Positions 37,492 through 62,165 of a stretch of 64,000 nt of DNA are shown here, piece after piece. A program made the position numbers and the translations under genes. The DNA lies in IMG/VR virus record IMGVR_UViG_3300043427_003220, positions 62,001 to 126,000 of that record; one strand, 5' to 3'. Below the pieces are notes generated by a model. It saw only the letters and a list, made by a program, of their open reading frames with translations, ran no database searches and was not told where the DNA came from. Source of the DNA: a virus. Position 1 is the first letter of the stretch. Every line of letters begins with the position of its first letter.

Positions 37492-37698
37492 CTTTTGTCC
37501 TACAAGTTACATCTACTGTAATTCACAGAAGAAAAAATAAACTCATAAAAATAACTCAAGACTTTCCAAAATCTGACAATATGTCTCTTATAAAGACATA
37601 TTTATTAGCGACGACTGCGACCGTTACGGTGGCCTTGAAAATTATTGATTTTGCCGTCAATAATAGTAAAATGCCTTAAGTCATGGAGGTTTAAGGCT

Positions 37699-40600
37699 GT
37701 GCTCAAATCATTCAAACAATTAACAAATGAATACGAAAGACTTAAAAAGTCAGAAGAATTCAAAGACTTAACTTCTGACGACTTACTAAATAAAGATATT
37801 ATTCAAAGAATTCAGAAAAAGAGAGTCAATTCTAGCCCAAGCGAAAAAGAACAATTAGACTCTTATATTAAAAACGCTATGCAAAAAGCTCTTCTTAATA
37901 CCTACCATGACCCTAAGTACCCAGAAAAGCTAGACATGGCATGGAGTAAATCTTCACTTGCTGACAATGCTCAGAGGGAGCTTGAAACATCTCCCCGCAA
38001 CTGGCTGACAAAAACGTCAAGTGGCGAATACGATGTTGACACAAATAAACTTAAAGAGTCTCCTCTTTCTTTCTCTGCACTAAAACATATCAAAGACATG
38101 AGTCCTGAAAATGCCAAGAAGATTATGGAAAAACTTAAAGACTCTCCAGAGCTATCTGAGTCGCCGGCCAGAACAGCTAAAGCTGGTGCTATTAGCGAAA
38201 TTGCTAAGTTTGCACCACTAGAGGCGCTATTCGACAAAGACTACACGCCATGGGGTGCTTATGCAGCTATTAAAGAAAAAACAAAAGACTTTACAGAACA
38301 TCCAATATCATTAGACAAACTAAAAGAACTTCACGGTAAGCGTTATTATGGCGACGATACGTCTTATGTTGGTAAAGTGCTGAGTAATTATGTTCTTTCT
38401 CATCCAGACACTCCTAAAGAAGACCTTTTAAGCCATATTCAAAATAACTTTTCTCCATCTTCAGACGTATTAACTCACAAATCTCTAAGCCCCGAAGATA
38501 TTAAGCACGCTGTACGTTTAAGGCTTGCAAACCAAAAAGGCGTTCTTGATAACTTAGAAGGTTTGAATACAAAAGAAAAAGTCGATAAAGGACTAGCAGT
38601 TCTTGAAGGGCTGCATGAATATGCAAAGACTAACCCCGGTATTCATCAAGATATGATTGACTACGGTCTTCACAAATTAGCTTTGAACAATGTTTCAGAA
38701 GAAGTAACAGAGCATGCTTTAAATAAGCTATTGGAAAGATATAATAATAAAAACTATTTATCTAACGACCCTAAAGCTGCTGCCGCCATTAGGGGCAGCT
38801 TGGCCCACAGTATTAATAGTGTAATTCATCCAGACAGCCCTGCTTCGCAAAAAGTTTTGATTGAAATTGCCAAGGGAACTCATTCAATTAAAGACAAAAC
38901 AGGAAAAATCAAAGAAAACGATTTGTTAGATAACATCTTAAATACACGTCGTTTTAGGACAGACGGAAGTCAAAATTTTGTAAACGAAGTAAGACGACAT
39001 GTTATTGAGTCTGGTCACGCGCCATCTATTCAAAGTATTTACAAGCAATGGGGTTCGGCTTGGGGAGTTGAAAGCCAAAAAGCAGAACTAGAACATTTAA
39101 CAAATAAGTTTGACGACAAGACACTCGCCAAAATTGTTCCTCATATGGATGCTGCTTTTTTAAGAAAACATGTATTTTCTAATCAAGAACTTTCTCAAAA
39201 GATTCTCCCACATCTTTCTTCGGCAGCAAAAGCCAAACTTGAAAAAGACGGCGCTCTTGGTGGTATTTCTAAAGAAGACTCTCCTTTGAGTTTTTCTAGT
39301 AATACAGAGATGTTAAGAAAACTAAGAGACGTTGCCGAAGCAAATGGCGGCTCTATTAGTGCAAAACAATTAGGGCAGCATGGATTAAATGAAAATTCTT
39401 TAAAAATTACACACTTAAAAGACGCAAAAGGAAACTATACAAAAGAAGCTATCCAAAAGCACATCGACTCAATGCCCAAGCATAATTACGACTACTCTCA
39501 TACGAGTTGGAAGGGCGCTCAAGTACACTCAAACGAAAAACAGTATGTGTTTCAGCTTAACCACAATGAAGACCTCCTTAATGAAATGAAGAATGCCGGT
39601 GTCTATGACACTTTTGCAAAGACACATGAGCTTTCTTTTAATAGTGACCATCCAGTCAAAGACAATACGTTAGGATGGGTTAGGTATACTAAGGGCAAAG
39701 ACGGGCACATCCACATAGACGAAATTCAAAGTGACTTGGGACGCAGTCTGCATGGGTCTATAAAAGAATACTTAGAAAAACAACCAGAATCTCCTAAAAA
39801 GAAAAAACTAGAAGAGCTGTTTTCAAAAGAAAAAATAGACAAAATGAACGACATTTTGTTTAAAGGACAGCACCCATCAAAGATAATTCATGAAGGGTTT
39901 CTGCAGTTTTTAAGAAACAACGGTAATGTTGGTAAAGATATACATATCTGGCAGGCAATGCCCAAGGCCAAGTTGGCAGGGCAAGATACTGTGGGCAATT
40001 TTAGTCTTAGAGGCTTCTCAGATAACATTGACTTTCATAAAAAAGTTGAAGCAAATAAACCGATTGAAGATTTTGATGCTGGAGAAATTGAACAGGCAGC
40101 AAGAGCTTTTATAGGGCCTGAAGAAACAATTAAGATATACGATAAACATGCGGTCTATAGTCCGGGTACAGCAACACAAGGGCCTGAAGAGATTGGTTTT
40201 AATTTAGAAAACTTCAAGAATGACGTTGTCAATCATCCTCTATACAAACTTGCAATAAGCCACATCAAAGCACATGCCACTAATGACGATTTGGCTTCAG
40301 CCAGAGAACCATTAGAGGAAAATGCAAGTTTTGACGATAAGGTTTCTTATCCCTACACCATCAACGAACTTCCTGTACACATGAAGATTGGCTATCAAGA
40401 GCTACCGCCTAAGCTAGACTATACTCCAGACAGCTATGGCAAAATACAGACACAAAAAACCAAGGATTTAAAAGACCAACCAACGTGGAAGACCAACTTA
40501 AGAAAGTCTCTCAAGGCACTCACTGCTGAATACGAGAGACTTAAAAAGGCTACGGACCCGTATGCTTATATAAATAATTTTGGATATTCTGACGAGTCCG

Positions 40601-41667
40601 ACGACCTATACAATGACATAAGCGATGCTATTGACCATCACAATTTAGTTTCAAATAGACGTGGCGAAATGTATGGAGAAATTTCAGAAGATTACGATAC
40701 TAGCATTAAAAAACCCAGCGAACTTTTACCCGCCCATGCGTTGCAGCAAGAGGTCGGGTGGCTGTTAAAACATCCCAAAGAAGAATGGGCGGCCAAAATG
40801 GCTGAAGCGTTTAAACAAACTGGACGAGATTTTTCTCATATCATAGATAAAAAGTCTAAAAAAGAACTATCTCCGCCTATTACAATTAATGGCGAGCTGG
40901 TTGACGGGTTTGGTAGAGTACATTTAGCGCATGCTTTAGGGGAAAACGTTCCGGTTTTTAATTACAAAAGAAAAAGACTACGAAAGTCTTTTGGCTCGCT
41001 CACTGCTGAATACGAGAGACTTACAAAAGCCGACGCTCCGGTAGTCAAACTTAATCCAGAGCACGGCAGAATGATCGCCGACGCTTACCACAACATGAAG
41101 CACGACCCAAGTCACCCAGAAGTTAAGGCTTCTTACGATGCTCTTATAAATGAGACTAAGCAGCAGTATAAAGATTTGTTGGCGTCTGGACTAAAAATTT
41201 CTAAGATACAGCCTAATATGGATAATCCATATCCGACTTCTAAACACCTACATGCAGACATGACAAACAATAATCACATGTGGTACTATCCAACATCGTT
41301 GGGGTTTGGTTCAGAGGATTCTATTCCTCACGATCACCCAATGTTGCGGGAAACAGAATTTAAAGACCCAGAAGGTAAGCCAATGCTAGCTAACGACGTT
41401 TTCCGGGTAGTACATGACAGCGTCCATAATAAATTAAAAAATGGATTTGGGCCGAAGGGCGAACACGAATCATTCTTGGAACACAAAAAGACCTACAGCC
41501 CCTTGGCTCAAAAAGCATTGGCTACAGAGACGATGGGTCAAAATAATTATGTTAATTTTTCAAGTCAAATTGGCCACTTAAACAGAGCTAAACCGGGTTC
41601 GGCTTATGCGCCGCAAAAGGCAGGATTGATGCCAGACGAAATCATCAATAAGGATTGGCATTCATGA
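37699..41667 (+). CDS. Giant multidomain polyvalent protein P1
   Basis: 1322 aa. GTG 37699 is chosen because GGAGG precedes it and the product then begins with the peptide MLKSFKQLTNEYERLKK, which recurs at 935 and 1095. Domains: a long helical part (about 20-560); a polyvalent-protein segment with WVRYTKGKDGHIHIDEIQSD (EIQSD at 675-679, as in large polyvalent proteins of mobile elements); tag 2; a segment with DGFGRVHLAHALGENVPVF (about 1072-1090), which looks like the ParB/sulfiredoxin-type D-G-x-x-R motif; tag 3; and a C-terminal domain (1110-1322) conserved in many phage proteins, with HMWYYPTSLGFGS, MLANDVFRVVHDSVH and TETMGQNNYVNF. It is probably virion-carried. Processing at the tags is a hypothesis. 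Confidence 0.72.
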   Translation: MLKSFKQLTNEYERLKKSEEFKDLTSDDLLNKDIIQRIQKKRVNSSPSEKEQLDSYIKNAMQKALLNTYHDPKYPEKLDMAWSKSSLADNAQRELETSPRNWLTKTSSGEYDVDTNKLKESPLSFSALKHIKDMSPENAKKIMEKLKDSPELSESPARTAKAGAISEIAKFAPLEALFDKDYTPWGAYAAIKEKTKDFTEHPISLDKLKELHGKRYYGDDTSYVGKVLSNYVLSHPDTPKEDLLSHIQNNFSPSSDVLTHKSLSPEDIKHAVRLRLANQKGVLDNLEGLNTKEKVDKGLAVLEGLHEYAKTNPGIHQDMIDYGLHKLALNNVSEEVTEHALNKLLERYNNKNYLSNDPKAAAAIRGSLAHSINSVIHPDSPASQKVLIEIAKGTHSIKDKTGKIKENDLLDNILNTRRFRTDGSQNFVNEVRRHVIESGHAPSIQSIYKQWGSAWGVESQKAELEHLTNKFDDKTLAKIVPHMDAAFLRKHVFSNQELSQKILPHLSSAAKAKLEKDGALGGISKEDSPLSFSSNTEMLRKLRDVAEANGGSISAKQLGQHGLNENSLKITHLKDAKGNYTKEAIQKHIDSMPKHNYDYSHTSWKGAQVHSNEKQYVFQLNHNEDLLNEMKNAGVYDTFAKTHELSFNSDHPVKDNTLGWVRYTKGKDGHIHIDEIQSDLGRSLHGSIKEYLEKQPESPKKKKLEELFSKEKIDKMNDILFKGQHPSKIIHEGFLQFLRNNGNVGKDIHIWQAMPKAKLAGQDTVGNFSLRGFSDNIDFHKKVEANKPIEDFDAGEIEQAARAFIGPEETIKIYDKHAVYSPGTATQGPEEIGFNLENFKNDVVNHPLYKLAISHIKAHATNDDLASAREPLEENASFDDKVSYPYTINELPVHMKIGYQELPPKLDYTPDSYGKIQTQKTKDLKDQPTWKTNLRKSLKALTAEYERLKKATDPYAYINNFGYSDESDDLYNDISDAIDHHNLVSNRRGEMYGEISEDYDTSIKKPSELLPAHALQQEVGWLLKHPKEEWAAKMAEAFKQTGRDFSHIIDKKSKKELSPPITINGELVDGFGRVHLAHALGENVPVFNYKRKRLRKSFGSLTAEYERLTKADAPVVKLNPEHGRMIADAYHNMKHDPSHPEVKASYDALINETKQQYKDLLASGLKISKIQPNMDNPYPTSKHLHADMTNNNHMWYYPTSLGFGSEDSIPHDHPMLRETEFKDPEGKPMLANDVFRVVHDSVHNKLKNGFGPKGEHESFLEHKKTYSPLAQKALATETMGQNNYVNFSSQIGHLNRAKPGSAYAPQKAGLMPDEIINKDWHS
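37702..37749 (+). repeat. KSLKALTAEYERL-type tag, copy 1
   Basis: Encodes LKSFKQLTNEYERLKK at the extreme N-terminus of P1. An N-terminal place is where T4-like phages carry capsid-targeting peptides (of the form K-x-F-x-x-F-x-x-E). Confidence 0.65.
40501..40548 (+). repeat. KSLKALTAEYERL-type tag, copy 2
   Basis: Encodes RKSLKALTAEYERLKK inside P1 between the polyvalent segment and the ParB-like segment. It shares 25 identical nt (40519-40543) with copy 3. Confidence 0.75.
40981..41028 (+). repeat. KSLKALTAEYERL-type tag, copy 3
   Basis: Encodes RKSFGSLTAEYERLTK at the border of the C-terminal P1 domain. The 25-nt identity with copy 2 (40999-41023) points to duplication, not convergence. 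Confidence 0.75.
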
Positions 41668-44090
41668 ATTTAAGACACTTTCATCGTAGCAACACCGAAG
41701 AATACCAACGTGAGCTGCAAGAGTTGTTTAATCATAAACTAGCATTGGCAAGGTCTTTAAAAGCACTGACCGCTGAGCACGAAGAACTACAAAAAGTCAT
41801 CTTTAGAAACGGCACGCACTACCCTGAATCAACTGACCGTGTAGGCACTCCTCATCCAGAGTTGCGTCATCTTATCGTACATCAAGCAAGAAACGGTAAG
41901 CATGTTTGGTCGTACCATCCAGAACTCAGTAGAATTCACGACAGAAACTTGATACAACTTATGGGCGGTCAAAAGATTGCCGGCAGAAACAATGTGCAAC
42001 TCCCAAATAGACTAGCGTCTTTACAAAAACCGACGGTTTCAGCAGTTAGAAGTTTTGCTAATGATTTGATAAACAATCCAGACAGACACGTCATGTCTGC
42101 CAACACAGACCCAACCAAGCCAAAAGATCATTCAGAAATGCGCGTAAGGCATCTTATTAGTGCATTGACTGGCTCTGATGGATATGAGATAAAAGACCAC
42201 CCAGAAGGGTTTGAAGTTTATGCGCCTCGTCACTCCAAGTCTCAAAAGGCAGACGACATTGCAACTCGTTGGATTTACAACGCTGCTAAAAAAGACTTAA
42301 GGTCTGAAAGAATTTATCCGAAAAGTCCAAATGGAGGCAGTTATGGAACAAAATTTGGAAAATCAATTAGACCCAGACCTTCCAGCAATCTTGGAAGAAG
42401 ACAAACTGATGCAAGAAAGTCTGCAGCTCAAAGACCCCGGTCTTCTAAAGACATTGTGGGTAAGACTGAAGTTGCTTCTAAGCTTTTGAAAGCCGAAGAC
42501 GAAGCGGGCATGACCGCATATCCATTAAAAGATGGATATTCGCTGCACCACGAAACTTCATCTAATGGCTATGACATCTGGAGTATTGGCCATAATGGCC
42601 AAAGAGCAGGTTCATTTATGATTTGTACAGATGAGGGACGCAGGGGCCGCCCGTTTGTCAGTTGGGCAGGAGTAGACAAGCCTCACCGTGGCAAAGGGAT
42701 TGGAGCTGCAGTTTATAAGACTTTGGCTGTACACTATGGTGGTTTAGACAGCGACAGAAACTCAACGTCCGTTGACGCTATCAAGGCGTGGCGTCGTGCT
42801 GGCGGTAGGCAGCTCAAAATTAAAACGGCTTTTGGTGAACCTAGATACACTTTGGAAGGAGACAAGAAAAGACCCCCTATTGTGTGGAATGAAGATTTAG
42901 ACAAAGCACAGGAATTAAATAAAAAATCGCCAAAGCCTTTAAAGGGGCTTCATGCTGAGGCGGCAAAGTACAATAATTTTAATGATTTTAAAAAAGCATT
43001 TTTAAACGAAATAAAACATGGAACATACTGGCATGTAACTGATAACCCTAATTTTCAAATAGACCCAAAAACTGGGCCACGAGATATGACTTCCCTTGGG
43101 ATGGGCAAAAAAGATACTGGCGCGTTAATGATGACCTCGCATCTTGAACATTGGGTTGATTTTTATGGCAAAAAAAATCGACCTTATGCTGCTCTTATAG
43201 ATATGTCCGATGTACACCCAGATGACTACAAACAGGTAAATCGGGGTTTTGGTAATGAATTTTATGTAAAAAATTCGCAAAAAGCTAAAACTATAAAAGT
43301 AATGCCGGTTGATGAAGCCATTAAATACAATCAAAAACAACGCAAAAAAATGCCTCAAAATGAAGAAGAGCTAAGAAATCTTTATGAAAGTGTTCATAAA
43401 CAAAACTCATCTAAGTCTCAAAATTTAGAGAAAACTCGCGGAACTTTGACATTTCCTAAAGTTCTTCCTAAAGATACTCGTCCAGAAGAAAACGTAAAGC
43501 AAATCCCTAAAGACGAAAAGGCTCACCCGATGCACGGCGGGCTATATGAAGTCAAACCTGCTCAAGAGCAGTTCTTACACACAATGGTTCAGGGCATCCC
43601 TGCTGAAGAACAGTACCGAGCCATCACAAGCATTAAAAACCAAATACAGCAAGGAACCATGGGCATCTACCATCCCAAGCAAGAGAAGGCGTTTGCTTTG
43701 GATTCAGATTATTATGTAAAGGCTCATGAAGCCATTCATGCAATGGTTGATAAGGTGGCAAAGCGCCTCAAGGCTCCCTCAACGGATGAAGTTTATCATC
43801 GGATGAACACCCTTATCCACCAAGACGATGTGCCTGTCTTAAAGCACATGCTCATGACCTTTGGTTACCCTGTAAGCAGCCATCATAGGGAACTCATTCC
43901 GTTCATTCACTCAATTTTGCATGACAGAGAAATGAGAAATCATTATATTGAACACCTAAAGCTTTATCGCAATAATTTCGATATAGAGAAGCGTAGAAAA
44001 GACATTCAGCGTTTAGGCAGAACTTGGAATGCTATTCTACAGACAGGCAAGAGAGTGTCTCAGCTATCAGATTTACCTAAAGAGGTGTGA
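41664..44090 (+). CDS. Giant multidomain polyvalent protein P2 (GNAT, ART-like, HExxH)
   Basis: 808 aa. ATG 41664 overlaps the P1 stop (ATGA). Order: N-terminal tag copy 4 (ARSLKALTAEHEELQK, residue 30); an uncharacterised part with HLIVHQARNGKHVWSYHP; an Arg/Ser/Lys-rich linker (230-270); a GNAT acetyltransferase-like domain (about 290-390) with the acetyl-CoA loop PHRGKGIGAAVYK (R342); tag-like copy 5 (KSPKPLKGLHAEAAKYN); a domain starting YWHVTDNPNF (456), an ART-like pattern; and a C-terminal part with HEAIH at 688-692, a zincin-type zinc motif. Three different enzyme-like domains in one phage protein suggest an injected effector set. Activities are predicted from motifs only. Confidence 0.7.
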   Translation: MNLRHFHRSNTEEYQRELQELFNHKLALARSLKALTAEHEELQKVIFRNGTHYPESTDRVGTPHPELRHLIVHQARNGKHVWSYHPELSRIHDRNLIQLMGGQKIAGRNNVQLPNRLASLQKPTVSAVRSFANDLINNPDRHVMSANTDPTKPKDHSEMRVRHLISALTGSDGYEIKDHPEGFEVYAPRHSKSQKADDIATRWIYNAAKKDLRSERIYPKSPNGGSYGTKFGKSIRPRPSSNLGRRQTDARKSAAQRPRSSKDIVGKTEVASKLLKAEDEAGMTAYPLKDGYSLHHETSSNGYDIWSIGHNGQRAGSFMICTDEGRRGRPFVSWAGVDKPHRGKGIGAAVYKTLAVHYGGLDSDRNSTSVDAIKAWRRAGGRQLKIKTAFGEPRYTLEGDKKRPPIVWNEDLDKAQELNKKSPKPLKGLHAEAAKYNNFNDFKKAFLNEIKHGTYWHVTDNPNFQIDPKTGPRDMTSLGMGKKDTGALMMTSHLEHWVDFYGKKNRPYAALIDMSDVHPDDYKQVNRGFGNEFYVKNSQKAKTIKVMPVDEAIKYNQKQRKKMPQNEEELRNLYESVHKQNSSKSQNLEKTRGTLTFPKVLPKDTRPEENVKQIPKDEKAHPMHGGLYEVKPAQEQFLHTMVQGIPAEEQYRAITSIKNQIQQGTMGIYHPKQEKAFALDSDYYVKAHEAIHAMVDKVAKRLKAPSTDEVYHRMNTLIHQDDVPVLKHMLMTFGYPVSSHHRELIPFIHSILHDREMRNHYIEHLKLYRNNFDIEKRRKDIQRLGRTWNAILQTGKRVSQLSDLPKEV
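41751..41795 (+). repeat. KSLKALTAEYERL-type tag, copy 4
   Basis: Encodes RSLKALTAEHEELQK near the N-terminus of P2, so the tag is shared between two genes. Confidence 0.7.
42924..42974 (+). repeat. Possible diverged tag, copy 5
   Basis: Encodes KSPKPLKGLHAEAAKYN between the GNAT-like and ART-like parts of P2. The K-S-x-K-x-L-x-x-L-x-A-E frame is kept but the rest has diverged. Confidence 0.4.
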
Positions 44091-44092
44091 TT

Positions 44093-44494
44093 GTGAAGAG
44101 TTTTTTAAGATGTCTAACATATAAAAATGATTATAGTTTTTGTATAGAAGACGGCGTCTTAAAAGACTCTTTTCTTAATATTAAGATAAACCCCAATCCT
44201 TCTATGCTCTTTGCCGAGATGCTTACTGAGTGTTTGTGGAATGTCTGTAGGGTTGATTTTGACTTTATGATAACTTCTTTGACTCCTCCTACAAATGAAA
44301 ATATAGTTAATGATTTTAATAACATAACAAAAACTTGTTATTTAAGACACACAGTAGGCGACCAAGAAACCTACTATCACCTTAAAGACAACTCTCTCTA
44401 TTTGTTTGATAAGCCAAACGAGCCAGTTAAAATAACAGAGCTATTACTGATTGACGGCGATTGGACGATTGTTAAAGAGCAGGACTGCAGATGA
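44093..44494 (+). CDS. Hypothetical protein between P2 and the ART-NUDIX gene
   Basis: 133 aa. GTG 44093 is preferred to GTG 44087 since AGAGG then has normal spacing; both are in frame. The protein is alpha/beta with five cysteines, and a final half rich in aromatic strands (YYHLKDNSLYLFDKPNEP, LLLIDGDWTIVKEQD). The stop overlaps the next start (ATGA). No family is recognised. Its coupling on both sides implies that it belongs with the multidomain proteins, perhaps as an immunity or chaperone partner. Confidence 0.5.
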   Translation: MKSFLRCLTYKNDYSFCIEDGVLKDSFLNIKINPNPSMLFAEMLTECLWNVCRVDFDFMITSLTPPTNENIVNDFNNITKTCYLRHTVGDQETYYHLKDNSLYLFDKPNEPVKITELLLIDGDWTIVKEQDCR

Positions 44495-46104
44495 AAAAAC
44501 TTCTTGAAATTATTGACGAAGTTGCAAAAGAGCATGGGCTTGAATGGTACAAGCCACATAGCGCCGAACCTATCAAAAAATCCTCCGACCCTCTTGCCCC
44601 TCTTATTCAGCAAGCCAAAGCAAATCTTGCTGCAGTTCATAAAGTCGCTTCTCAAGAGCCACGCCCAATGTTGTTTGGCGGTAAGAACGGCTCTGGCCGT
44701 CATGGTTTTGTGTCTTTAGACCCATCCAAACCCAACCAATGGCGTGTCACTCACTTTGTTAAGGGCAAGCCTTCAGGGCACACAGAGGCAGATAGCTTTA
44801 GCGATGCAATTGAAAAGGCTCACAGCTATGGCTACAATGTATCCAAAGAATTATCTGAAGAAGATATGAGTAAGACTGAAGACTTAGAAAAAAACACAAA
44901 TAAAATATCGCCAAGCTTTGCACACATTAAAAATATTGATAATTTTGATGACTTTACTCAATCCGTAAAAAAATTGCCAGAAACAACCAAAAAAGAAATA
45001 ATAAATTATCAAGAAGAGTATAATAAAAATCCCCCACTTTCTTCAAATGAAGAACTTTACTATCACGGAACTCCTTTTTTTAATGAAATTAAAGAAGGTG
45101 GATTTAAGAATACAGAAGGAGGTAGGGCCGGATTCTTAGGTTTTGTGCATAAGGTGCAAAATTTAGGAAACTATTTCAGCAATGACAAAAGATTAGCGCA
45201 CTATTATGGCTCTGACCGAGCGTCTCATCATACTAACAATTCTAATAATTATGAAGTATTATCGGTCAAAGTAAATAAAGGAAACTGCTTAGACCTGACA
45301 GAACCAAAAGTTAAGATACCAACAGCGATAAAAAAATTAGGTCTTAAAAAACTACAGCAATATGATGGGCTGTTACGCTCTCATTTTATTAGAGGTAAAG
45401 ACATGGTTGTTTTACTAGATGACCCTGATTTTGTTAAAAGTTTAACCAATCATGGATACGATAGCGTCAAATTTAAAGAAGACAAAGGTATTTTAAAAAA
45501 TGCTAATAGTTCTGGACATACTTTATTCGTAATGAACCCTAATAAATTGAAAGTTCATAAACCTATCCGTACCTTAAGAGACATGTTTAATCATTTTAAA
45601 GAGTTGTTTGAAGAAGATATGGAACAGGACAAAATGAAAAAATCCGAAGACTTCTCTCGTGTATCTTCTGTTGTTGTTGCTACCGACGACAAGATGTTGA
45701 TGCTCCAGCGCCGCGACAATAACAAGTGGACATTCCCCGGTGGTCATTTAAATGACACAGAAACTCACCTTGAGGGAGCTGTTAGAGAGCTATGGGAAGA
45801 GGCTGGCATCAGAGCTAACCCAGATGAAATGATTCTTCTTGGAAACAAGAAGACTTTTCAAAATAAAGACATTCACGTTTATCTTTATAAAGTAAACTCA
45901 GAAGTCAAACCATCAGCCGCCAATGACCCAGACAAAGAAGCCCAGAAGTTTGCATGGTTGCCGCATGTACTGCCAGAAGATATTAAAGAAAACCTCTATA
46001 TCCCCGTTGGAGACAACTCTTCATTGTCGTTGTTTTCGGTATGGTTGTTGAGACAAAAGACGAATAAACTCAAAAAGTTGGTTGAGGCTAAGAAATCAGT
46101 TTAA
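44491..46104 (+). CDS. ADP-ribosyltransferase-like / NUDIX hydrolase fusion protein
   Basis: 537 aa. N-terminus MKKLLEIIDEVAKEHGLEWY, then a small domain with HGFVSLDPSKPNQWRVTHF (about 65-125). At about 185-370 there is an ART-like domain: YYHGTPFFNEIKEGG (H192), NYFSNDKRLAHYYG (Y228), a GYDSVKF turn and a final LFVMNPNKLKV, the pattern of H-Y-type phage ART-like domains. At about 395-525 there is a NUDIX domain with a complete box at 418-440: G, E424, R432-E-L-W-E-E437-x-G-I. NUDIX enzymes cut NDP-X compounds including ADP-ribose and NAD-type caps. Fusion of an ADP-ribose-transferring and an ADP-ribose-hydrolysing module suggests a linked activity on one target; that is inference. The 3' end overlaps the converging gene by 9 bp. 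Confidence 0.8.
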   Translation: MKKLLEIIDEVAKEHGLEWYKPHSAEPIKKSSDPLAPLIQQAKANLAAVHKVASQEPRPMLFGGKNGSGRHGFVSLDPSKPNQWRVTHFVKGKPSGHTEADSFSDAIEKAHSYGYNVSKELSEEDMSKTEDLEKNTNKISPSFAHIKNIDNFDDFTQSVKKLPETTKKEIINYQEEYNKNPPLSSNEELYYHGTPFFNEIKEGGFKNTEGGRAGFLGFVHKVQNLGNYFSNDKRLAHYYGSDRASHHTNNSNNYEVLSVKVNKGNCLDLTEPKVKIPTAIKKLGLKKLQQYDGLLRSHFIRGKDMVVLLDDPDFVKSLTNHGYDSVKFKEDKGILKNANSSGHTLFVMNPNKLKVHKPIRTLRDMFNHFKELFEEDMEQDKMKKSEDFSRVSSVVVATDDKMLMLQRRDNNKWTFPGGHLNDTETHLEGAVRELWEEAGIRANPDEMILLGNKKTFQNKDIHVYLYKVNSEVKPSAANDPDKEAQKFAWLPHVLPEDIKENLYIPVGDNSSLSLFSVWLLRQKTNKLKKLVEAKKSV

Positions 46105-46305
46105 GTCGTCTTTATCGTTTGGCCTATTTTCAATCGCTCTAATAAGCCTAACAGCAAAATGCTTATGAAAATCGTGGTTTGTTTGATTGGCGGGATTTTT
46201 AGCTAACGCATCTAGATAGGCAGTCAAAATATCCTTAGCGACTTTGTTGTCATCTTGGATTCTTTTGATAAGAGACTCGTCAATTTTATAAGTTGTTTGA
46301 TTCAT
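46096..46305 (-). CDS. Small helical protein
   Basis: 69 aa (MNQTTYKIDESLIKRIQDDNKVAKDI...). Charged and mainly helical, with no motif recognised. The start is adjacent to the end of the lipoprotein gene, with which it forms the end of the minus-strand operon. Its stop region overlaps the end of the ART-NUDIX gene on the other strand. Confidence 0.5.
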   Translation of the reverse strand: MNQTTYKIDESLIKRIQDDNKVAKDILTAYLDALAKNPANQTNHDFHKHFAVRLIRAIENRPNDKDDLN

Positions 46306-46925
46306 TTATTTTTCTTTAGTTGATTGTCTTGAATATGATAATCGGCTGCGCGATATTTAACAATATCCTTTCCGTAGATATACCACTCTCCATTATTTTT
46401 TTGAATATTTTCAAGCAACTCTGCGTGAGTCATCCCCATTCTGTTTGCCGCTCGCTTTAGCAAATAAGTCTCTTGAACAAACCCTTCTAGGCCAGCCAAA
46501 AATGCCTCGGTGACTGGAATGGTTCCGTTTCCAAAAGAAATAGAATGGTGGTGAGTCATAAGCAATGTTCTGTCTAGATATACTCTTACAGTGCAGGCTT
46601 CGTAAATTTCAAACGCTGCGCTCATTGCTGTATCAGCAACGCAAATGGTTTTAAACCCACTCATAGTATTCATAATACTTTCGGCAGCATCAACCATTCC
46701 ACCGTTGCTGTTGATATAGATAAGCAAGGTGTCTCCGGCTTTCATTTTTTCTGTGCGGCCCTTAAGGTTGTCGTCTACATACCAGTTAATTTCGCCGCTC
46801 ATATTAAACATGGCTTGTTTATTGGTTTGCAACTCAGCCAAGACTTCTTGAGGTATCTCTGGATTGGGTTTAGATTTTCCACAAGCGGCTAAAATCATTA
46901 AAAATATCAAAAAAAGTTTTTTCAT
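46302..46925 (-). CDS. Lipoprotein with ClpP/SppA-type protease fold
   Basis: 207 aa. ATG 46925 is chosen because MKKLFLIFLMILAACGKS is a textbook lipoprotein signal (lipobox LAAC, Cys15). The body follows the Clp-protease fold: LLIYINSNGGMVDAAESIMNTM (oxyanion region), then CVADTAMSAAFEIYEAC with a Ser (S102) in the nucleophile position, and LLMTHHHSISF with the His (H125 or H126). The Asp position is Glu180 (NGEWYIYG). It should be anchored in the cell envelope. A close relative is encoded at 55162. The role could be cleavage of envelope proteins or protection against other phages; this is inference. Confidence 0.72.
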   Translation of the reverse strand: MKKLFLIFLMILAACGKSKPNPEIPQEVLAELQTNKQAMFNMSGEINWYVDDNLKGRTEKMKAGDTLLIYINSNGGMVDAAESIMNTMSGFKTICVADTAMSAAFEIYEACTVRVYLDRTLLMTHHHSISFGNGTIPVTEAFLAGLEGFVQETYLLKRAANRMGMTHAELLENIQKNNGEWYIYGKDIVKYRAADYHIQDNQLKKNK

Positions 46926-47482
46926 TTTTTGTATCTCAATGGGTAGAAGACAGAGTGAACTATTTGAATACACTGCTCTTTTGTTAGTATTTTATTATCC
47001 ATCAAAGTAAATACGGCATTTCTTGCTGCAATTGATGGGGTCCATGATAAACACATATGAACAACATTCAGCAGCGACTTTTCTTCGTCTGAAAGTAGTT
47101 CTCTATACAATTCCATGCTCTTTTCTAACTGTTCTCTTATAGACGCAATTTGACCGTCGAGTTCACGGCGTTCTTTGATATTTTGCTTTAAGACTCTTTC
47201 TATTCTTTTTGCAACCAACAAATCAACACTGAGTCTTTTTTCTACTTTTTTCAAACAAATCAACAATATACGTCTAGCTGCGTAATTGTCTAAAAAATTA
47301 CCTGACAATACAATGTCTATTTTGTCTAAAGAATCGACATTTGGCAACTTAAGAAAATCAACTATTGTGCCGCTCCATGTTGAGTCCAGTTGTTTCCAGA
47401 TTCGAGGGCCTGATTCAGAAATATAATACACATCGTATCTATTAATTTTTCTAGATGTGTCTAGTAGTTGACTCTCTTTCAT
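46922..47482 (-). CDS. Hypothetical helical protein
   Basis: 186 aa from ATG 47482. The longer frame would begin with TTG inside the previous gene. The stop overlaps the lipoprotein start (ATGA), so the two are translationally coupled. The middle is a predicted coiled coil (RIERVLKQNIKERRELDGQIASIREQLEKSMELYRELL). No domain family is recognised. Tight coupling suggests that it works with the lipoprotein. Confidence 0.5.
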   Translation of the reverse strand: MKESQLLDTSRKINRYDVYYISESGPRIWKQLDSTWSGTIVDFLKLPNVDSLDKIDIVLSGNFLDNYAARRILLICLKKVEKRLSVDLLVAKRIERVLKQNIKERRELDGQIASIREQLEKSMELYRELLSDEEKSLLNVVHMCLSWTPSIAARNAVFTLMDNKILTKEQCIQIVHSVFYPLRYKK

Positions 47483-55161: not shown

Positions 55162-56094
55162 TTATTCTGAGACTTTGAATCCCATTGCCTCGTCAATCAT
55201 CTTACGAGCTTCTGCTTTATAATCAAGAATTTTTGTAAGTTGTTTTTGCAAACTTAGTTCTTGCGCAGGAGTTAGTGTGCCATTACGTGCAATTTCAACC
55301 GATTTTGGCTCAGTTATCAGCGGACACTTTGACCAAGTTATATTAAGGCGAACATAACCGCCGAATAGAGAAAGAGTTTGTTTTTCTTCTTTGTTTACCA
55401 AATCCGGTGTACAAACGGCTTGAGCAACGCGGTCGGCGGCCTTTGCCTTGACAGCATCGCGGCCAAATAGCCAATAATCATCTCTTACAAGTTGTTTAAA
55501 TCTTTCTACTGGCAATTCCATGCGTTTTGCTTGTGCAGCATCAATTGCATTGGTCATTTGCTTCAAAAATTCAACAAACGCAATTGCATTTGGCTGAGGT
55601 TGGAACCTTAGTCCAAAAGAGGGAACATGTTGCATCAAAATAGATGATTCGAGAACCACGCGCTCATCGCAAGCTTGAAGGATAACAAATGACATCGAAG
55701 CAGAAAAGTCTGTTACACAAACTACTTTTTTATTAACAGAACGAATTGCCTGTACAAGCTGTACGCCATCCATTACTGAACCACCGGGGGAGCTAAGAAA
55801 CAAATTAACCGTATCCCCTTGAGCGGTCATCAAAGCAGAGATAGCTTTTGACACGCTGGTTCCGTCAACCTCGCCACGTAGTACGATTGTATTATCAGAA
55901 AGCACAATAGAATTTTTACTAGAAGTAAGCTTTTGTTGGCATTCAAGGCTTTGGCAAGTAACATCGCTGCTATTATTTTTTTGCGACAAAATTGGCTTAG
56001 AACTATTGTTTGAAAACTCAGAAGCTGAGGCTGACCCAACTGTTGTCAAAGCTAGAATAGACAATGGAATAGAAAGAAAAGACTTAAAAAACAC
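55162..56094 (-). CDS. Secreted ClpP/SppA-type serine protease
   Basis: 310 aa from GTG 56094, which has GGAGG 4 nt upstream; the ATG at 56133 gives 323 aa but has no ribosome binding site. N-terminal signal (FFKSFLSIPLSILALTTVGSASAS), then a linker with two Cys. Clp fold: IVLRGEVDG, LFLSSPGGSVMDGVQLVQAI, nucleophile in FSASMSFVI (S133), LMQHVPS (H156) and DDYWLFGRDAV (D206). Numbers are from the GTG. The full triad is present, unlike the lipoprotein relative at 46302. It is likely exported to the periplasm. It is odd to find it between UvsX and the SSB in the replication operon. Confidence 0.74.
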   Translation of the reverse strand: MFFKSFLSIPLSILALTTVGSASASEFSNNSSKPILSQKNNSSDVTCQSLECQQKLTSSKNSIVLSDNTIVLRGEVDGTSVSKAISALMTAQGDTVNLFLSSPGGSVMDGVQLVQAIRSVNKKVVCVTDFSASMSFVILQACDERVVLESSILMQHVPSFGLRFQPQPNAIAFVEFLKQMTNAIDAAQAKRMELPVERFKQLVRDDYWLFGRDAVKAKAADRVAQAVCTPDLVNKEEKQTLSLFGGYVRLNITWSKCPLITEPKSVEIARNGTLTPAQELSLQKQLTKILDYKAEARKMIDEAMGFKVSE

Positions 56095-56150
56095 AAAACC
56101 TCCAATCGTATTAACAGCATAAGACAACACCATTGTTTCTTATGAAATTA

Positions 56151-56630
56151 TTAAACCATATTTCCTGACATTTGTCTAGTCTCATTAAAACCATATCTTG
56201 AAGCTTTAATGCTAGACTGAGCCATAATGAGATTCATCTTAATCAAATTAAGTTGTTCCAGCATGGCTTCGTACATTGCTTCGCGTTGTTGAGCTGTTTG
56301 AACATCTGTGTCAAGGTTGACAAAGTGTTCGCGTAAGTCAGCAGTAGGCTTGGCAATATTCATTTGTTGGCAGTATTCTGGAAACCGCTCTAGGGCGGCG
56401 AGAGCCTTAGAGCGCTTAACCTCGGAACGCGCCATATTAAAACTATAGGTAACTGACCCCAAGTAACCACTTAAGAGACTCATACCCTCAGACAGAGCGG
56501 AAATGGCCCTGTTGGCATCGTAGTCTGTCTTCAGTTCATGGATATTTGACGCGATGACAAGATAGTTTTTAAGAGTGTCAATGTACTCAGGAATTACATC
56601 TTGAGAATCAACGCGCTTAACTTCTTTCAT
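56151..56630 (-). CDS. Helical protein between SSB and protease genes
   Basis: 159 aa, GGGGGAAGTC upstream. All-helical (LKTDYDANRAISALSEGMSLLSGYLGSV, EVKRSKALAALERF, REAMYEAMLEQLNLIKMNLIM). The size and helical pattern resemble recombination-associated phage proteins of unknown function, found in operons with SSB and UvsX. A recombination-mediator role is possible from context only. Confidence 0.5.
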   Translation of the reverse strand: MKEVKRVDSQDVIPEYIDTLKNYLVIASNIHELKTDYDANRAISALSEGMSLLSGYLGSVTYSFNMARSEVKRSKALAALERFPEYCQQMNIAKPTADLREHFVNLDTDVQTAQQREAMYEAMLEQLNLIKMNLIMAQSSIKASRYGFNETRQMSGNMV

Positions 56631-61149: not shown

Positions 61150-62165
61150 TCCTCCTCCACGTCTTCTGCCGGAATCAAGACAAAGTTATCATTCATCTGC
61201 CAAGTCGTAATATCTTTGCCGTACTTGTAAGGATAACGAACTTTTTGAATCTTTAGCCAAGTGCGAACTTCATTGTTGGCATTGACCTTCTTAACAAGCA
61301 TAAGACCATGGGTCGCGTGGGTCAACGACTCTTTTGACTTTCTTAGGCAGCTAAACATATCCCACTGAAAGGCCGACCGCCCTGCTGGCGGATACATTTG
61401 CTGAAAGCAGATAACAGGGGCATACTTAGGAGACTTACGGCTGTTGATTCTGAGGCCAAACTGCTGACTCATAGTTTCAATCTTTTTAAAATCTTCAACC
61501 TTGCCCTTGCCTGTATAACCAATATCAGCCATGGCGTTTGACAACTGGTCAACAAAAATTAAGTCTGGATTAAACTCCTGAGCACACCTAAACGTATAGG
61601 TACATAGGGTCAGCCACCCTAATGACAACCCTTGAGAAGACTCGGCATCTTCAATACGAGAATACTGATAGACTCTCTTAAAAGCTTTTTCATAGGACAG
61701 GCCCAACATTGCGGCCAGCTTACGGCTAATTTCATTCCTATAGGCTTCAATAGGCAACTCGTTGGAAATAATCAAGATTCTTCGTCTGTTAGCAATAGCA
61801 TGGGCAGCGGACTGCATACAAAAAGTTGACTTGCCGTTACCTGTAGGAGCACCCACAACGACAAAAGACTTTTTATGCAAAGTAAGTTGAAACTCATCTG
61901 AAAAGAAGGGAATGCGGTCTTCGACCATGTCTTGAAAATCTTTTGCTTCTGACAACGCTTGTTCAACGAGGCGCTCTTTAAAATCCTCTTCCGCTTCTTT
62001 TTGCTGACGTTCAGATTCTGCCAAAATTTCTTTAAGCTGATTTGGATTAACAAGAATATCTTTTTGGGTGTCTCCGGTTTTAATAGAGACACTCCATGGA
62101 GTATCGGCTCCGACATCTCCAAACTGTGGGCTAGACCAATTTTCGTCTTCGTCGTGAGTAACCAC
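61146..62165 (-). CDS. DnaB-like replicative helicase
   Basis: 339 aa, GTG start with GAGG upstream. After an acidic N-terminus and a coiled-coil linker (about 40-80), the RecA-type motor follows: Walker A GAPTGNGKST (105-114), IISNELPIEAY, Walker B LIFVDQLSNAM, a conserved glutamine (VICFQQMYP) and basic C-terminal strands (WLKIQKVRYPYKYG). It lacks the usual large N-terminal DnaB domain, as do several phage helicases. It should form a hexamer that unwinds DNA 5' to 3' ahead of the polymerase. Confidence 0.82.
   Translation of the reverse strand: MVTHDEDENWSSPQFGDVGADTPWSVSIKTGDTQKDILVNPNQLKEILAESERQQKEAEEDFKERLVEQALSEAKDFQDMVEDRIPFFSDEFQLTLHKKSFVVVGAPTGNGKSTFCMQSAAHAIANRRRILIISNELPIEAYRNEISRKLAAMLGLSYEKAFKRVYQYSRIEDAESSQGLSLGWLTLCTYTFRCAQEFNPDLIFVDQLSNAMADIGYTGKGKVEDFKKIETMSQQFGLRINSRKSPKYAPVICFQQMYPPAGRSAFQWDMFSCLRKSKESLTHATHGLMLVKKVNANNEVRTWLKIQKVRYPYKYGKDITTWQMNDNFVLIPAEDVEEE

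Follow-up and report, generated by a model that had tools for sequence, protein, structure and literature searches.

In phage T4, the internal proteins and Alt each carry a single N-terminal targeting peptide, which is removed by the prohead protease at (L/I)xE sites with the cut falling after the glutamate, and the proteins are packaged and injected. Here we describe three phage genes, encoding P1, P2, and ORF3, in a stretch of 64,000 nucleotides (nt) of IMG/VR virus record IMGVR_UViG_3300043427_003220 (the window; positions 62001–126000 of the 162,747-base record, "contig" coordinates being counted along the whole record). A repeated peptide tag, a short motif enriched in head proteins and present in the capsid N-arm, module junctions lying at sites of this motif, and versions of the modules that are encoded by separate genes or fused to the prohead protease make P1, P2, and ORF3 look like head-targeted polyproteins. 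On these sequence features it is probable that the three chains carry enzymes and are cut in trans by the prohead protease; their cleavage, packaging, and ejection, and the enzyme activities, are what we infer.

Polyvalent proteins carry many enzyme domains per chain and are thought to be packaged and injected; the available part of their description likens them to RNA virus polyproteins, reports fusions to portal and MuF domains, and credits release to embedded peptidase domains (Iyer et al. 2017, PMC5512222). In the window phage, by contrast, the sites appear to match those of the head maturation protease, being common to the capsid and scaffold-like proteins, and they are the places at which modules are swapped. 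The prohead protease gp245 of Salmonella phage SPN3US has many head proteins as substrates and cleaves long propeptides at several points; in the available part of that account, the cuts identified besides self-cleavage all yield N-terminal propeptides, and no splitting into several enzymes appears (PMC10052503). The SPO1-lineage (Herelleviridae-type) head module is alike in its head maturation protease, its site-rich scaffold-like protein, and a capsid protein that is homologous and has K|(S/A/T) in its N-arm. The Herelleviridae proteases read measure 169–270 amino acid residues (aa), with no multi-enzyme chains noticed beside them in the stretches read (mostly 6.5 kb), whereas the Mx1-like phages and the window phage have long site-punctuated chains, which in several phages are fused to the protease. 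Polyvalent proteins and a multi-target prohead protease are thus already known, while multi-enzyme chains with head-protease sites are apparently new: within partial literature coverage, our search turned up no publication in which multi-enzyme proteins are substrates of a prohead protease at K|(S/A).

The repeated tag in P1 and P2

All three genes lie on the + strand. P1 (37699–41667, 1322 aa counted from a GTG at 37699 in an open frame spanning 37645–41667) consists of the tag 1 leader, a long helical/EIQSD region, tag 2, a ParB-like region, tag 3, and a C-terminal domain. P2 (41664–44090, 808 aa counted from an ATG at 41664 in the open frame 41655–44090) is composed of a leader with a tag, an N-terminal module, a GNAT-like module, an ART-like region, and an HExxH module. 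ORF3 (44491–46104, 537 aa) contains a module after IKK|S, an ART-like region, and a NUDIX domain after MKK|S, the putative sites lying after nt 44580 and nt 45642, respectively. The open frames bear out the two consecutive giant proteins described by the first-pass annotation, and the GGAGG upstream of the GTG of P1 places tag 1 at the N-terminus, as had been proposed.

The strict tag pattern matches at nt 37705, 40504, and 40984 in P1 and at nt 41751 in P2, and nowhere else among the 179 predicted open reading frames of the 162.7-kb contig (51,073 aa together, the proteome that was searched). From composition, 7e-7 matches are expected, and none of 100 shuffled proteomes contained one, so the four clear copies (three in P1 and one in P2) are real. 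A looser pattern also matches one unrelated protein (contig 129329, KTIDKLSTEFWEQ), and the exact degenerate pattern found no match in viral contigs. Tags 2 and 3 of P1 have the reported run of 25 identical nt in common. The diverged fifth copy claimed near P2 residue 421 (LNKKSPKPLKGLHAEAAKY) was not counted as a tag, being too weak; an LDK|A site is present at residue 417, where homology to the genome G006 stops.

The tag 1 leader, LKSFKQLTNEYERLKK (37702–37749, +), would be cut at LKK|S after nt 37749. Tag 2, LRK|SLKALTAEYERLKK|A (40498–40548, +), and tag 3, LRK|SFGSLTAEYERLTK|A (40978–41028, +), carry putative cuts on both sides, after nt 40506 and 40548 and after nt 40986 and 41028, respectively. 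The P2 tag, LARSLKALTAEHEELQK (41745–41795, +), is followed by V, with LKK|A at the equivalent place in G006. The element in common is K|(S/A), found where the tag ends, and all three P1 copies start with it as well; hence the core of the tag is probably its end (LKK|A, LTK|A, or LKK|S) and not LTAE.

The site motif in head proteins

The motif hydrophobic-x-K|(S/A), written hxK|[SA] below, was chosen from the window phage's own proteins before relatives were compared, and would be the cleavage site of its SPO1-type prohead protease. The head genes are located outside the window, elsewhere on the contig: the portal (contig 43331–45325; Pfam Phage_portal at 29.3 bits, under the cut-off of 39.1, and phrog portal families), the head maturation protease (contig 55419–56201; phrog_1028, E 9e-7), the capsid protein (contig 158790–160325; phrog_752, E 4e-12), and an acidic scaffold-like protein named from composition only (contig 146169–146879). 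The capsid protein is homologous to those of the SPO1 lineage (tblastn: Mx1, 4e-9; SJC03, 2e-12; EalM-132, 2e-3), its relatives being found in Myxococcus phage Mx1, Bacteroides phages, and one SPO1-like phage. Lys25 is invariant in the alignment of the window phage capsid protein with three others 20–24% identical to it. With the sites placed by eye, the N-arm contains [LMIFV]xK|[SA] in 10 of 11 phages and ALK|S in the remaining one, two of the 11 being Bacteroides phages with identical capsid N-termini; K|[SAT] is also present in all eight further contigs read, out of nine with a capsid match. In PDB entries 9row, 9rox, and 9roz, the chain comprises residues 25–463 of the phage 812 capsid protein, beginning directly after VVK|S, and is read here as the mature form. 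The capsid protein of Listeria phage A511 is said to be processed at Lys, and the site of SPN3US gp245 is reportedly not K|(S/A). The capsid proteins of the genomes G009, G010, and G012 have LVK|T in place of K|(S/A); together with LIK|T before the P1 C-terminal domain in G012, this is suggestive of a co-variation of the P1' residue between capsid and cargo sites.

The window phage protease is 38.5% identical to the Mx1 protease over query residues 7–153, and His38 and Ser117, with a predicted catalytic role, are conserved in a three-row alignment. In several SPO1-lineage prohead proteases (L028:18343–19113, L038:1037–1798, L170:5837–8233, and L172:6308–8536), the C-terminal part includes a duplicate of the capsid N-arm together with its K|(S/A) site, and the SP82G protease matches the Gp6.1 capsid chain 9vel (phmmer, E 2e-6). 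The N-terminus of the scaffold-like protein, SLTAEVEKLAK|SD, resembles the tag, and RLERMAK|SF of the capsid protein resembles the tag ends LKK|S, LKK|A, and LTK|A. The rest of the contig, where the first-pass annotation suggested looking for the tag, gave no strict match, and one resemblance; provided that the scaffold-like protein is rightly so named, a capsid-targeted protein does carry a tag-like sequence, the absence of which would have counted against the proposal.

Compared with shuffles, L.K[SA] is abundant in the portal, protease, scaffold-like, and capsid proteins (10 versus 1.5 expected) and in six polyprotein-like genes (16 versus 6.1, z 3.8; P1, P2, ORF3, and the genes at contig 147617, 149316, and 150827), with 41 versus 37.7 in the remaining proteins. 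Of the scaffold-like proteins of 11 phages, 8 show enrichment at p<=0.01, and the Mx1 head stretch holds 18 motifs versus 5.8 expected. These counts bear on the view that P1 and P2 are plain polyvalent proteins, in which the tag is a recombination remnant or flexible linker that the head protease leaves uncut, any release being due to the HEAIH metallopeptidase. Such proteins are common, and release by embedded peptidases has been proposed for them in the available part of the description (Iyer et al. 2017, PMC5512222); the 25 identical nt in tags 2 and 3 are also consistent with a duplication. This view is nevertheless quite improbable, as the same motif marks the capsid, protease, portal, and scaffold-like proteins. 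In three other phages' polyvalent proteins with the P1 C-terminal domain, L.K[SA] is near chance (1 versus 0.4, 1 versus 0.8, and 2 versus 1.1 expected), which also speaks against it, although these are too few to weigh much. A separate idea, according to which sites are scarce in other phages' polyvalent proteins, fails on the same near-chance counts.

Module junctions, splits, and fusions

Close relatives of the window phage, whose capsid proteins are 97–98% identical, differ by whole modules in their polyprotein-like genes. In P2, the GNAT module is bounded by LLK|A and LDK|A; its homologs also have such sites at both ends, starting at LNK|A and ending at LVK|A in G004 or at LIK|G in G006. 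In ORF3, the first module begins at IKK|S and NUDIX at MKK|S. In G001, the homolog of the gene at contig 147617 has two insertions, at ITK|S and L(E/K)K|A. Over the genomes G001 and G004, leaving out the G002 and G003 rows, 16 of 19 junctions fall within 8 residues of hxK[SA] (4.4 expected, in a formal test written after the junctions had been seen), in comparison with 0 to 3 of 19 for five control motifs, each at or below expectation, and 0 of 11 junctions in other genes. The distinct junctions number 13, of which 11 are at most 8 residues away from a site (2.9 expected; simulated P, 5e-6), the other six having been removed by hand as repeats, although five of those six are also at sites. Across all four relatives, 23 of 34 junctions are within 6 aa of hxK[SAT] (4.1 expected), versus 0 of 29 in other genes (1.4 expected). 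The identity of the following residue matters: for hxK followed by any residue, the count is again 16 of 19 junctions where 12.6 are expected, pointing to S/A as part of the signal. A polyprotein of G004 (G004:C1:45784–49611) contains many tandem copies of a NPNTHPDILHKLAVDSDEYVR-like repeat that is not in the window phage's version.

The junctions also bear on the mechanism of the first-pass annotation, in which the tags would act like the capsid-targeting peptides of T4 and be cleaved behind LTAE by a protease resembling T4 gp21. Their N-terminal position, similar length, and the glutamate ending LTAE are in line with it, as is a somewhat raised frequency of [LI].E in the six polyprotein-like genes (54 versus 42.7; standard deviation, 5.4). 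All four tags (LTAE or LTNE) misfit (L/I)xE, however, having T two residues before E; [LI].E is near 3 of 19 junctions (4.9 expected) and hxE[SAT] near 1 of 19 (2.1 expected), [LI].E is not enriched in the portal, protease, scaffold-like, and capsid proteins (16 versus 16.8), and the capsid N-arms conserve K|(S/A). T4-like LxE cutting was accordingly rejected as highly implausible.

Natural splits and fusions accompany the module exchanges. In G006, two modules of P2 have genes of their own, namely the N-terminal module (with the tag KK|SLKSLLAEYEKLKK|A) and the HExxH module; the GNAT module is part of a further gene. In the distant G016, a tag-like peptide forms the N-terminal leader of a 408-aa protein ending with the P1 C-terminal domain behind MKK|S. 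The protease genes of G013 and G014 are extended by a duplicate of the capsid N-arm and, behind MFK|S or MKK|S, by the P1 C-terminal domain; their first parts match the window phage protease (E 4e-19 and 1e-21; 31.6% and 34.8% identity over ~155 aa, respectively). In G009 and G010, relatives of the P1 EIQSD region lie between the protease and capsid genes. The fusions and this gene order tie parts of P1 to the prohead. For packaging and transfer to the host with the DNA, the indications are indirect, namely the head-type sites, the protease fusions of the P1 C-terminal domain, and a homolog, gp205 of Rhodococcus phage E3, that is annotated as structural. Of the earlier proposal that a tag repeated between domains makes a polyprotein of packaged and injected enzymes, the chain with separable modules and a tie to the head is supported by the two P2 modules encoded separately in G006, the relatives' module borders at sites, the protease fusions, and the tag-like N-terminus of the scaffold-like protein; the T4-like cut after LTAE is not supported.

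The tags could alternatively be uncleaved anchors, namely short helices whose binding to the capsid or portal would keep the whole multidomain protein inside the head by avidity. The tag, as a conserved leader, indeed exceeds a minimal cut site in length, it resembles the N-terminus of the scaffold-like protein, and it is N-terminal in a gene of G016. The borders of GNAT in P2 and of NUDIX in ORF3, on the other hand, have hxK|[SA] without the long tag, and the site type matches the start of the deposited capsid chain, so that we regard anchoring without cleavage as unlikely. Binding of the leader followed by cutting is compatible with both the anchor and the cleavage readings.

The P1 C-terminal domain (VVHD domain; 41029–41664, +) is predicted to fold alone: its AlphaFold2 model has a mean predicted local distance difference test (pLDDT) score of 91.3, with values <50 at residues 1–4 only. 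The model found no fold match in PDB (best E, 0.48), and the domain may have an unassigned fold. Homology to three other phage proteins starts after tag 3, at P1 residues 1128–1135 (numbered from 37645). The domain is common among phages, being present in 295 of the 410 candidate viral contig stretches. In a survey of 55 of 80 loci, reduced to 47 by removing identical ones, a site is located 4–9 residues before the domain in 5 loci, and 37 have none within ~30 residues; the four contigs tested among those five loci all encode an SPO1-type capsid protein.

Proposed processing and its consequences

Several observations weigh against the polyprotein reading. The P2 tag ends in K|V; as V is the residue next to the tag, this end is probably a degenerate site. 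The match of the first P2 module in G006 continues through TGA and TAA, so that this split may be a later break. The genes at contig 147617, 149316, and 150827 were picked after the counts had been seen, L.R[SA] (5 versus 2.0, z 2.1) and L.K[LIV] (12 versus 6.4, z 2.2) are also raised in the six genes, and for P1 alone and P2 alone the enrichment is not significant (p 0.17 and 0.22). The short motif occurs inside folded domains as well (P2 residue 355), three of the 11 phages have scaffold-like proteins without enrichment, and the Mx1 non-head proteome is itself enriched (46 versus 27.8 expected). The scaffold-like protein has no BLAST match to the Mx1 protein preceding the capsid gene. Other capsid chains (5lii and the SPO1-type 9vel) and the phage 812 portal chain are full length in PDB, and a search for a full-length P1 relative found none.

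Among the domain labels given in the first-pass annotation, GNAT in P2 passes the Pfam cut-off marginally (20.8 versus 20.7 bits) and only as an isolated module, the ART-like label falls under it (ART-PolyVal, 19.3 versus 31.2), and ParB-like, EIQSD, and HExxH are motif readings to which Pfam lends no support; NUDIX in ORF3 is above the cut-off. The GNAT-like cassette (42483–42905, +) would be released by cuts after nt 42491 (LLK|A) and nt 42905 (LDK|A), and the HExxH module (43425–44087, +) begins at LEK|T (after nt 43433), with HEAIH at nt 43725. At least two unrelated catalytic or effector domains per chain, as in polyvalent proteins, are found in ORF3 (ART-like and NUDIX) and in P2 (GNAT and the HEAIH module), a count resting partly on the ART call under the Pfam cut-off and on HEAIH as a motif reading. 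That GNAT, ART, and NUDIX modify host proteins or nucleotides is guesswork. Whole-protein queries with P1 and P2 against viral contigs returned no relatives, nor did the P2 query among phages; a single-sequence structure prediction of P2 (mean pLDDT, 37) was not used. The NUDIX domain of ORF3 matches phrog_15528, a portal protein family, which suggests that portal–NUDIX fusions exist elsewhere.

Beyond ORF3 lies a gene for a ClpP-like protein (46302–46973, −; Pfam CLP_protease above cut-off) with a lipoprotein-like signal seen by eye and a relative in G004 and, by eye, also in G006. A phage-encoded GlpX-type fructose-1,6-bisphosphatase was observed at L003:299–1201 (E 1.6e-111).

In the proposed processing, P1, P2, and ORF3 would enter the prohead by co-assembly via their leaders or by fusion to head proteins. 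Once activated, the prohead protease would cut them at hydrophobic-x-Lys|(Ser/Ala, sometimes Thr), the site type of the capsid and scaffold. The tag would be a short helical leader ending in a cut site, and tags 2 and 3 of P1, with sites on both sides, would be released as small peptides. The freed modules (GNAT-like, ART-like, NUDIX, HExxH, and others) would be retained in the head while DNA is packaged, and be ejected with the DNA. Since one site per module end suffices, the gain, loss, fusion, or splitting of cassettes would come at little cost.

On balance we favor, with more reserve, the broader proposition that a clade of large tailed phages uses plug-in cargo, in which any protein domain with hxK|(S/A) sites on both sides, at times preceded by a KSxxxLTAEYExLKK leader, would enter the prohead, be freed by the protease, and be ejected. 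The protease sites would then serve as evolutionary joints at which enzymes are added, swapped, fused to the protease, or split into genes. Trypsin also cleaves after Lys, so that standard virion proteomics hardly separates head-protease cuts from digestion, which may explain how such processing could be overlooked. If the proposition is true, prokaryotic viruses would have, in these chains, their own version of protease-processed polyproteins whose contents can be exchanged. Cut sites would predict the injected enzymes of large phages from sequence and make long "hypothetical" phage proteins parsable into mature products, and a short peptide address for loading capsid cargo would be at hand. 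The system would also provide a testable rule for what enters the head, and a hint as to how phages alter their injected arsenal fast.

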